A DNA stretch of 31,971 nucleotides, taken from IMG/VR virus record IMGVR_UViG_3300008107_000224, positions 1 to 31,971 of that record. One strand, given 5' to 3'. This document shows, one piece after another, positions 23,797-28,375 of this stretch. The notes beneath the pieces were generated by a model. It worked only from the letters and a program-made list of their open reading frames with translations, was not told the origin of the DNA and did no database searches. Both the position numbers and the translations under genes were made by a program. Positions within the stretch are counted from its first letter, which is position 1, and every line of letters begins with the position of its first letter. The DNA is from a virus.

Positions 23797-23939
23797 TACT
23801 ACCTGAAGATGTATTTGCTCTTATTGCAAGAGTACATAAAATCAAACATTCATTATACAAAGAACCACAATCAGACCTAGCCCATAAAAAACTCAATGAG
23901 GTTCTTTTTGCTCTTGAAGAATTGAAGGCAAAACTTTAG
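23793..23939 (+). CDS. Small hypothetical protein coupled to the preceding gene
   Basis: A 48-residue frame starting at GTG inside the stop of the previous gene (GTGA). It is a regular alternation of helices with hydrophobic spacing: VILPEDVFALIARVHKIKHS, then a hinge KEPQSD and LAHKKLNEVLFALEELKAKL. It looks like a small helical protein. Its 3' end overlaps the convergent endonuclease gene by 47 bases. No family recognised. Confidence 0.5.
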   Translation: MILPEDVFALIARVHKIKHSLYKEPQSDLAHKKLNEVLFALEELKAKL

Positions 23940-24330
23940 AGTAGATATTCTCTTTTTCAGTAGAATAAAATTTACCTTCAATATTTGTATTGTAATAGTC
24001 TTCTCTTAGAAGAACATCTCTTCTGAATTGCTCATAGGTTTCATAGTAGCTCATTGACTTTTTGTGAGGACAGAGATAAAGAATTTCGCGGATAAATTTA
24101 TCTTCCCCAAGCTCTTTAACATCATCCTTTAGTTCATCACAACTACCAAAGTATTTTTGCCAATTACTTTCTTTAGTTTTTCGCCGGCCGGTCTTTGGAT
24201 CTTTTCGTCTTTCCCAGAAGTTCTTTTTGCCGATATATTTTTTATTGTTTGTTGTGTTCGTAATTAGATATACAAATCCCTCCATACCTTTTGGCACTTC
24301 GGTAAATTCTTGATTGTTAAAATACCACAT
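23893..24330 (-). CDS. GIY-YIG endonuclease (Seg-like)
   Basis: A 145-residue nuclease with the GIY-YIG fold: GFVYLI (18-23) and KYIGKK (31-36) with the expected spacing, then W-x-KYFGS and ELGEDKF with the catalytic-region Glu/Arg pattern (FIREIL). The family is common in T4-like cyanophages and includes T4 Seg homing endonucleases. I start at ATG 24330, preceded by GGGAG and a late promoter at 24351; a longer frame from 24459 would cross the promoter at 24368 and has atypical sequence. It probably acts as a free-standing mobile element, or helps with DNA processing. Confidence 0.85.
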   Translation of the reverse strand: MWYFNNQEFTEVPKGMEGFVYLITNTTNNKKYIGKKNFWERRKDPKTGRRKTKESNWQKYFGSCDELKDDVKELGEDKFIREILYLCPHKKSMSYYETYEQFRRDVLLREDYYNTNIEGKFYSTEKENIYSKVLPSILQEQKEPH

Positions 24331-24350
24331 TATTGCTCCCGTTGTGCCGG

Positions 24351-24358
24351 TATTTAGA
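24351..24358 (-). promoter_or_regulatory. Late promoter for the GIY-YIG gene
   Basis: TCTAAATA on the minus strand, 21 bases upstream of the ATG at 24330. Confidence 0.65.
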
Positions 24359-24367
24359 CTGTCACAC

Positions 24368-24396
24368 TTGACAAATAGACATAAGTGGGTTATTAT
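24368..24396 (+). promoter_or_regulatory. Sigma70-type promoter for the small gene at 24422
   Basis: TTGACA (24368-24373), 17-base spacer, TATTAT (24391-24396). The following leader carries AGGAG before the GTG at 24422. It runs divergently to the late promoter of the endonuclease. Confidence 0.8.
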
Positions 24397-24421
24397 ATTA
24401 GGGCAAGCAAAGGAGAATTCT

Positions 24422-24607
24422 GTGAATAAAAAGCAAAAGAAATTGCAGATCGTAGTCAATCAAGTAACTGAATGGGCAAACACAAGGGCAGATAGTCTAA
24501 ATTCTAAAAAACAACATTTAAACGCTGCCGCACTAAGGGCTGAATTCGCTGAATGGTCTGAGGCTCTTGACGATCCATCTATCCCGATCAATGTCATTTC
24601 ACTCTGA
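24422..24607 (+). CDS. Small early protein
   Basis: A 61-residue protein starting at GTG, chosen because AGGAG lies eight bases upstream and the promoter at 24368 ends just before. It is basic at the N terminus (NKKQKKLQIVVNQVTEWANT) and more acidic at the C terminus (LRAEFAEWSEALDDPSIPI), a two-helix pattern. As a single small gene with its own strong host-type promoter and terminator, it may be an early host-modifying protein. That is inference; no family is recognised. Confidence 0.65.
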   Translation: MNKKQKKLQIVVNQVTEWANTRADSLNSKKQHLNAAALRAEFAEWSEALDDPSIPINVISL

Positions 24608-27434: not shown

Positions 27435-27442
27435 TATTTAGT
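27435..27442 (-). promoter_or_regulatory. Late promoter for tRNA-Gly
   Basis: ACTAAATA on the minus strand ten bases before the tRNA 5' end; the expected start leaves a leader of only a few bases. Confidence 0.65.
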
Positions 27443-28040
27443 TTATTTTTTCCCGATGTACTTTATACCCTTTATATTGCTCTACCTTTCCCTTTGCGAC
27501 TCTATACATGTTGGAATCGCTTAATCCGTATAGATTGCAGAAATCGTACAAATATTTTGTTTTTATTATTTCCCCTTTGGGCGTGGTTATTACATAGTAA
27601 TAATTTATGCTATTTTCATCTCTAGAAATTCTACCTTTTCTGAAGCCATCAGGAATTTTTTCTCCTTTTTTTATTCTATATGTTCCTTCTTTAGTGCCAT
27701 CCGTGATCCACATTGTACCGTACTGAGAATTTTTTTCTCCTTGTTGGTGTTTTATTTCTTCAAACGTTTCTTTTCTTTTCTTTCTAACTTCAGATGTTAA
27801 GGCTTTTTGTCTGCCAAGTTCTACTGCCTTGCAAATAATTTCTTTTTTACCAATGGCTCCAGATAATGCAAGCCAAGCAATCCTATCTTCTTCATTACTC
27901 CATAGCTTATAGTTACAATAATGATACATTGCATGTTGAGTTATAGATACCTCAACTAAGTTTTCTTTTTTATTTGAGCCTCCTTTATATTTTGGCATAA
28001 TGTGATGTTTATGGCGAAGTGGTCCGTTGTCACACGTCAT
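27438..28040 (-). CDS. HNH homing endonuclease
   Basis: A 200-residue endonuclease inserted between tRNA genes. The N-terminal HNH site is KHHIMPKYKGGSNKKENLVE (11-30; H12, H13, N28) followed by H36 and H40. The middle carries a NUMOD3-like segment (GEKNSQYGTMWITDG, then GFRKGR), and the C terminus a NUMOD1-like helix-turn-helix (YLYDFCNLYGLSDSNMYRVA), the DNA-recognition set typical of phage homing endonucleases. The start has AAGGAG at 28048-28053. Its late promoter (28072-28079) and a leader complementary to an upstream element suggest controlled timing. The 3' end overlaps the tRNA-Gly promoter. Confidence 0.9.
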   Translation of the reverse strand: MTCDNGPLRHKHHIMPKYKGGSNKKENLVEVSITQHAMYHYCNYKLWSNEEDRIAWLALSGAIGKKEIICKAVELGRQKALTSEVRKKRKETFEEIKHQQGEKNSQYGTMWITDGTKEGTYRIKKGEKIPDGFRKGRISRDENSINYYYVITTPKGEIIKTKYLYDFCNLYGLSDSNMYRVAKGKVEQYKGYKVHREKIN

Positions 28041-28071
28041 TTCTATTCTCCTTAAGTTGAGTAGTGTGCTT

Positions 28072-28079
28072 TATTTAGT
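28072..28079 (-). promoter_or_regulatory. Late promoter for the HNH gene
   Basis: ACTAAATA; expected start about 28066, so the mRNA would begin at the 12-base complementary segment and have a leader of about 26 bases. Confidence 0.7.
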
Positions 28080-28114: not shown

Positions 28115-28142
28115 ACCTGAAAAGACACTACTCAACTCAGGT
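28091..28142 (-). ncRNA. Candidate small late RNA antisense to the HNH leader
   Basis: A late promoter (28147-28154) is followed about six bases later by a hairpin with ACCTGA/TCAGGT arms and a 16-base loop, then the terminator. The loop exposes 12 bases exactly complementary to the predicted 5' end of the HNH mRNA, next to its ribosome site. There is no reading frame. Existence as a separate RNA is inferred from promoter, hairpin and terminator spacing only. Confidence 0.45.
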
Positions 28143-28157: not shown

Positions 28158-28278
28158 CGCTGCATCTTGGACTTGAACCAAGGACCGACTGCTTATGAGA
28201 GTACAAGGTATTGCTCCTTGTCTGAGTTTACTTAAAACTCCCGAAGGCAGTTGCTCTTTCCAACTGAGCTAATGCAGC
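28158..28278 (-). tRNA. tRNA with 47-base insertion in the anticodon loop (probable CAU)
   Basis: All arms are canonical: acceptor GCUGCAU/AUGCAGC, D stem GCUC/GAGC, anticodon stem ACUGC/GCAGU, variable CGGUC, T stem CUUGG/CCAAG with loop UUCAAGU. The anticodon loop (28193-28246) is 54 bases instead of 7. Removing 47 bases would leave CUCAUAA, a standard CAU loop. The insert contains two perfect 6-bp hairpins (GAGTTT/AAACTC and ACAAGG/CCTTGT). It is too short for a group I or II intron. It may be an intron-like element needing removal, or the gene may be inactive. A late-type box (AGTAAATA, 28283-28290) lies directly upstream. Confidence 0.8.
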
Positions 28279-28304: not shown

Positions 28305-28375
28305 TCGGAGTGGAAGGTACTGCCCCCTCTTCGTCGCGTCCCAAACGCGAAGTTATACTTTTCTACTACACTCCG
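28305..28375 (-). tRNA. Degenerate tRNA-Pro-like gene (UGG)
   Basis: Acceptor CGGAGUG/CACUCCG is perfect and UA follows at 8-9. The anticodon stem UCGCG/CGCGA holds loop UUUGGGA, giving UGG (Pro), and A73 follows. The D arm is very short (GUA/UAU with a 6-base loop, no GG) and the T loop is GGCAGUA, not UUCRANN, on a GAGGG/CCUUC stem. It may be a decayed tRNA or a tRNA mimic. Functional charging is doubtful. Confidence 0.6.

Follow-up and report, generated by a model that had tools for sequence, protein, structure and literature searches.

A compact, tRNA-like candidate intron that interrupts the anticodon of phage tRNA genes

Introduction

Introns in tRNA genes are excised by more than one route. 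In archaea and eukaryotes, short introns in the anticodon loop, canonically between positions 37 and 38, are removed without self-splicing by a tRNA splicing endonuclease that recognises a bulge-helix-bulge, whereas group I introns interrupt the anticodon loops of bacterial and phage tRNA genes and can be mobile with homing endonucleases. A third kind was reported by Devoto et al. in 2019 (PMC6784885), who described enigmatic introns in the tRNAs of Lak megaphages, one of which, in a tRNA-Thr(UGU), may itself encode a tRNA. Two further systems act on related structures. RNase P cleaves model hairpins made of an acceptor stem, T stem and T loop at the canonical site, the 12-bp length of this helix is described as a measuring device, and replacement of the T loop lowers efficiency (PMC11143913). 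Bacteriophage T4 repairs tRNAs cut by an anticodon nuclease, using Pnkp and the RNA ligase Rnl1 to rejoin the halves within the anticodon loop; this system repairs damage and removes no intron.

Here we examine a tRNA gene with an enlarged anticodon loop in a virus record of 31,971 nucleotides (IMG/VR record IMGVR_UViG_3300008107_000224, analysed over its full length and referred to as the window). The neighbourhood is that of a T4-like cyanophage, with clamp-loader and ribonucleotide-reductase genes, a high-light-inducible protein and further tRNAs.

Results

An intact tRNA-Arg(UCU) gene is interrupted within its anticodon

An initial annotation, made from the sequence alone, had described a tRNA with canonical arms, a 54-base anticodon loop and a 47-base insertion holding two perfect 6-bp hairpins, whose removal was thought to restore a CUCAUAA loop. 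The observation itself is confirmed: the coordinates and strand are right, the loop is 54 nt and the insert 47 nt (Table 1). The outer stems are perfect, with 21 of 21 Watson-Crick pairs (acceptor GCUGCAU/AUGCAGC, D GCUC/GAGC, anticodon ACUGC/GCAGU and T CUUGG/CCAAG). ARAGORN with default settings misses the gene, but a local search with the Rfam tRNA model scores it at 54.5 bits (E 1.8e-11) and places the extra ~50 nt in the anticodon loop.

Two details of the initial annotation required correction. First, the splice phase was wrong. With the loop masked, the six best-matching tRNAs among 1552 distinct ones are all tRNA-Arg(TCT), in agreement with blastn hits of both halves to cyanophage tRNA-Arg(TCT), and uninterrupted relatives read CTTCTAA. 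The insert is therefore CTTC-GGGAGTTTTAAGTAAACTCAGACAAGGAGCAATACCTTGTACTCTCA-TAA, and its removal leaves the loop CUUCUAA with a UCU anticodon; the CAU (Met) reading comes from removing the wrong 47 nt. Second, the first of the two hairpins proposed (GAGUUU/AAACUC) competes with a nested stem that closes the insert (P1), which is favoured in the whole-gene fold (mean pair probability 0.66 against 0.33). The fold is stronger than expected by chance (z = -2.4), and P1 and the second hairpin (P3) arose together in only 1 of 20,000 shuffles of the insert.

Table 1. Positions of the interrupted tRNA, its parts and other features in the window and in related records
Record	Position (strand)	Feature	Remarks
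Window	28278..28159 (-) plus 28158	tRNA-Arg(UCU) gene with insert	28158 is the discriminator G
Window	28243..28278 (-)	5' exon: acceptor, D arm, 5' anticodon strand, loop bases C32 U33 U34 C35	Matches tRNA-Arg(TCT)
Window	28196..28242 (-)	47-nt insert (intron) between anticodon positions 35 and 36	
Window	28237..28242 (-)	P1 5' strand GGGAGU	Insert-closing, acceptor-like stem
Window	28216..28221 (-)	P3 5' strand ACAAGG	T-arm-like hairpin; compensatory difference T-A / C-G between L015 and the window
Window	28209..28215 (-)	P3 7-nt loop AGCAAUA	T-loop position, not T-loop consensus here; UUCRAxU in most relatives
Window	28203..28208 (-)	P3 3' strand CCUUGU	
Window	28197..28202 (-)	P1 3' strand ACUCUC	P3 + P1 3' strands = 12 nt
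Window	28196..28196 (-)	Single unpaired A at the insert's 3' end	In the place of a tRNA discriminator base; same A in L007, L009, L015, U in L165
Window	28158..28195 (-)	3' exon: U36 A37 A38, 3' anticodon strand, variable loop, T arm, acceptor, discriminator G	No CCA encoded
Window	27438..28040 (-)	HNH homing-endonuclease-like ORF downstream of the tRNA	phrog_655 E 5.4e-8; Pfam HNH weak, E 0.0045; a neighbour, not shown to belong to the insert
Window	28305-28375 (-)	Weak tRNA-like sequence directly upstream of the interrupted tRNA	34.8 bits in Rfam; anticodon region UGG (Pro); poor D arm, no T-loop consensus
Window	28055-28072 and 28120-28137	18-nt inverted repeat (89% complementary)	Around a terminator-like hairpin between the tRNA and the HNH gene
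Window	23893-24459 (-)	SegE-like GIY-YIG endonuclease gene	PF19835, E 1.2e-38; a second homing-type endonuclease in the window
L015; L163	10195-10282; 8469-8556	tRNA-Ile(UAU)-like gene with a long variable arm	Relatives have a normal tRNA-Ile(UAU)
phiM12	96296-96386 (L513 3832-3922)	Second tRNA annotated as pseudogene 'tRNA-OTHER'	91 nt, odd structure
L268	2928, 3871, 5005	tRNAs with inserts of roughly 80-100 nt	Extra hairpin plus a tRNA-like part; resemble Lak megaphage introns
L289	1421	As for L268	As for L268
L302	2701- and 4651-	As for L268	As for L268
L339	1077-1191	tRNA with T-arm-containing insert	Cut points ambiguous
L314	4498 and 5134	As for L339	As for L339
L324	11169-	As for L339	As for L339

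Inserts at the same site in other phages

Near-identical DNA to the window was not found in phage records. A search of other phages for interrupted and uninterrupted forms of the tRNA found both. A pattern scan of IMG/VR identified three more tRNA-Arg genes with inserts at the same place: L015, with the same insert class as the window, and L007 and L009, with a second class (L numbers denote loci in the records searched). A search through a conserved neighbouring protein gave 80 orthologous cyanophage loci, many of which have an uninterrupted tRNA-Arg with CTTCTAA, while four contigs (L165, L174, L175 and L176) have a tRNA-Asn with a 46-nt insert between CTGT and TAA. Further scans found Asn-type inserts in L404, L491, L410 (and copies), L457, L479 and L493 and a Gln(UUG) case with CCA encoded in the insert, L288. 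Blastn with the cyanophage Asn gene found the isolate Sinorhizobium phage phiM12 and its relatives phiM7 and phiM19, which carry CTGT-GGGAGATAAAGGAAACTTACCAGTTCAATTCTGGTTTCTCCAAGAG-TAA; in the phiM12 record the tRNA-Asn gene lies at 94960-95076, and its predicted spliced loop is CUGUUAA. In total, 12 distinct inserts besides that of the window were found between anticodon positions 35 and 36, in tRNA-Arg(UCU), tRNA-Asn(GUU)-type and tRNA-Gln(UUG) genes of diverse phages, and removal of each gives a 7-nt loop. The isotype is uncertain for L457, L479 and L493, as their tRNA bodies do not clearly match tRNA-Asn (L479 and L493 have a long variable region), and L165 and phiM12 match Asn among their top hits but not first. 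Six other loci (L339, L314, L324, L268, L289 and L302) were seen as interrupted tRNAs but were not counted among the 13 because their cut points are uncertain; the larger inserts of L268, L289 and L302 have 20-35 extra nt before the tRNA-like part. The recurrence of near-identical Asn inserts in four cyanophage contigs and three phiM12-group isolates rules against an assembly error. An exact-pattern search of 386 cyanobacterial genomes for the Asn and Arg versions gave only chance hits, and a scan of genome contigs with the Arg exons gave no interrupted tRNA.

The inserts resemble the acceptor/T-arm half of a tRNA

All 13 distinct inserts have P1, a stem joining the two ends of the insert, and P3, a hairpin with a 7-nt loop that is mostly UUCRAxU, as in a T arm. 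The two together are rare in shuffles of each insert (0 to 0.003). The four outermost positions of P1 and the four loop-proximal positions of P3 are paired in all 13 through two to five pair types each; as P1 and P3 were located by their pairing, this shows pair diversity rather than an independent test of pairing. L009 and L015 share identical exons but differ in P1 (CGCCTT/AAGGTG and GGGAGT/ACTCTC, respectively). In the window, L015, L007, L009, L165 and L288, P1 and P3 make exactly 12 bp, like an acceptor plus T stem, followed by one unpaired base or, in L288, by GCCA. However, the two-T-arm scan is biased toward 24-29 nt spacing, so L288 and L339 are not independent tests of the 12-nt rule. 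The seven other Asn-type inserts (phiM12, L410, L404, L491, L457, L479 and L493) have a mismatched first G, so that P1 starts one base in, a 5-nt purine-rich 3' tail and 10-12 nt from the loop to the end of P1. The tail class roughly follows whether the outer tRNA encodes CCA: none of the five one-base-tail inserts and five of the seven long-tail inserts lie in such a tRNA, and L288 has CCA in both insert and outer tRNA, whereas the cyanophage inserts and outer tRNAs lack it. Thermodynamic folding of whole precursors supports P1 and P3 together in the window, L015, L165, phiM12 and L404 but does not favour P1 in L007, L009, L457, L493, L491 and L479.

The interrupted genes are conserved

In nine interrupted tRNAs, 186 of 189 outer stem pairs are intact. 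The exons of L009 and L015, which hold two different inserts, and of five uninterrupted orthologues are 100% identical, while their 300-nt flanks are 59-98% identical. In the complete phiM12 genome and in the 172-kb cyanophage record of L176, the interrupted gene is the only tRNA-Asn found. These findings argue that the gene still makes a working tRNA and hence that the insert is probably removed. It is possible that the gene is not spliced and that its RNA acts as a structured decoy, sponge or regulator on a tRNA scaffold, or that it is an early pseudogene; there are no splicing data, and anticodon-targeting defences are proposed to shape phage tRNA loops (PMC10264068). We consider this unlikely given the intact stems, the conserved exons, the sole tRNA-Asn of phiM12 and the fact that removal restores the anticodon predicted by the tRNA body wherever this could be judged.

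Mobility and candidate enzymes

The site is polymorphic among close relatives for absence and for two insert classes, and HNH genes lie next to the tRNA in the window and phiM12 and near it in L015. The insert may therefore be a mobile element, a homing passenger moved by HNH endonucleases that cut uninterrupted tRNA genes, with splicing secondary or absent. However, no HNH-like ORF was apparent in the ORF lists, without profile searches, beside the tRNA in L007 or L009, the HNH proteins of the window and phiM12 belong to different families, and the insert itself encodes nothing. Homing may spread the insert and does not exclude excision, but it does not predict a tRNA-like fold, and as a full explanation we regard it as unlikely.

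RNA ligases of the Rnl1 and/or Rnl2 type were found in the large records L176, L457, L493, L268 and L314 and in phiM12, several of these phages carrying both families, and RtcB was found in L302. None was found in L289 or L324 with the families searched, or in the window record, which at 32 kb is too short to judge. As these ligases are also common in phages with uninterrupted tRNAs, their co-occurrence is not diagnostic and shows that the tool is at hand rather than that it is used here.

Discussion

Our results suggest that the insert is a compact tRNA intron that imitates the acceptor/T-arm half of a tRNA. The sequences themselves show that it sits at one exact site of otherwise intact tRNA genes, that it can fold as an acceptor-like P1 with a T-arm-like P3, 12 bp in all, ending in one unpaired discriminator-like base, and that its removal leaves a standard 7-nt loop with the anticodon expected from the tRNA body, here UCU; its excision, and each enzyme that may carry it out, are inferred from sequence alone, in the absence of RNA evidence. 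RNase P leaves a 3'-OH on the upstream piece, RNase Z (the tRNA 3'-end endonuclease) cuts after the discriminator base and leaves a 5'-P on the downstream piece, and T4 Rnl1 seals such ends in tRNA anticodon loops. In this view, the RNase P of the cell would cut 5' of P1, between C35 and G1, using the 12-bp ruler, RNase Z would cut between the unpaired A and U36, the exons would be held together by the outer acceptor, D, T and anticodon stems, and a phage T4-type RNA ligase would join C35 to U36 to make a functional tRNA-Arg(UCU). We consider it very likely that this is a real intron, nearly as likely that the structure is as drawn, and probable that it is removed in vivo; RNase P at the 5' end and a phage ligase are each only slightly more likely than not, and RNase Z at the 3' end is more tentative still. 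The explanation as a whole stands at about even.

There are weak points in this model. The P3 loop of the window has lost the T-loop consensus. In the seven inserts with a 5-nt tail, a cut just after a discriminator would not give a 7-nt loop, and a cut after a 4-nt tail (an N73-N76 analogue) must be assumed, although that tail is not CCA. It is also possible, though less likely, that the intron is cut by a different, unknown phage or host nuclease, for example one recognising the P1/internal-loop region, and sealed by phage end-healing and ligase enzymes as in T4 tRNA repair. The uniform site, the conserved exons, the poor fit of the 5-nt-tail class to RNase Z and the presence of both ligase families in several phages are consistent with this alternative, but it leaves unexplained the exact 12-bp ruler, the T-loop consensus in most inserts and the single discriminator-like base. 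A tRNA left permanently in two nicked halves, held by its outer stems, is very unlikely, as a cut between anticodon bases 35 and 36 would prevent an unligated tRNA from reading a codon normally and ligases are present in most large genomes.

The interpretation in the initial annotation is thus partly supported. It was right that this is a real, compact interruption, too small for a self-splicing intron and not a decayed gene, and of its four suggestions a new type of tRNA interruption fits best, ahead of a cleaved two-piece tRNA, a minimal mobile element, which remains possible without explaining the architecture, and a regulatory decoy, which is disfavoured by exon conservation. Its statement that phages are not known to use such introns needs the exception of the Lak megaphages.

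In the literature that we could search, non-self-splicing tRNA introns of this sort in phages are known only as an unexplained feature of Lak megaphages, and no paper was found that describes compact phage tRNA introns or a mechanism. A compact class with a shared site, a tRNA-like fold and a testable excision mechanism, present in a cultured phage of a standard laboratory bacterium, brings that puzzle within reach of the bench. If the mechanism holds, and we put this forward tentatively, it would be a further route of tRNA splicing, in which a nested tRNA mimic is cut out by ordinary end-maturation enzymes and the outer tRNA is sealed by a phage ligase, making spliced tRNAs possible in bacterial cells without a splicing endonuclease or a ribozyme intron. 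It would also explain why annotation tools miss or misname such tRNAs; the interrupted gene of phiM12 is annotated as a pseudogene 'tRNA-OTHER' and, in phiM7, as tRNA-Thr.

Comparison with described systems places the insert as follows. Group I introns also interrupt anticodon loops, but their catalytic core needs over ~140 nt, the inserts are 43-52 nt, and only tRNA matched in Rfam at gathering scores. Protein-spliced introns of archaea and eukaryotes are likewise short, but here a 4x4 internal loop (CUUC/AUAA) is predicted at the junctions in place of a bulge-helix-bulge, and the archaeal-type splicing endonuclease (PF01974) was found in 0 of 15 phage records, several of them fragments, while archaeal controls were positive. 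The inserts share with RNase P model substrates a 12-bp helix, a 7-nt loop, a (here predicted) 5' cut site at the helix end and mostly G at +1, but lie inside the anticodon loop of another tRNA. With T4 tRNA repair they share the proposed rejoining of halves in the anticodon loop by a ligase family found in these phages. The Lak introns likewise lie in phage tRNAs, and in one case the intron resembles a tRNA; L268, L289 and L302 look like this type. The class described here is much smaller, lies exactly between positions 35 and 36, is a minimal acceptor/T-arm mimic with a 12-bp ruler, occurs in cyanophages and other phages including an isolate, and suggests a specific mechanism, of which the Lak introns may be larger forms.
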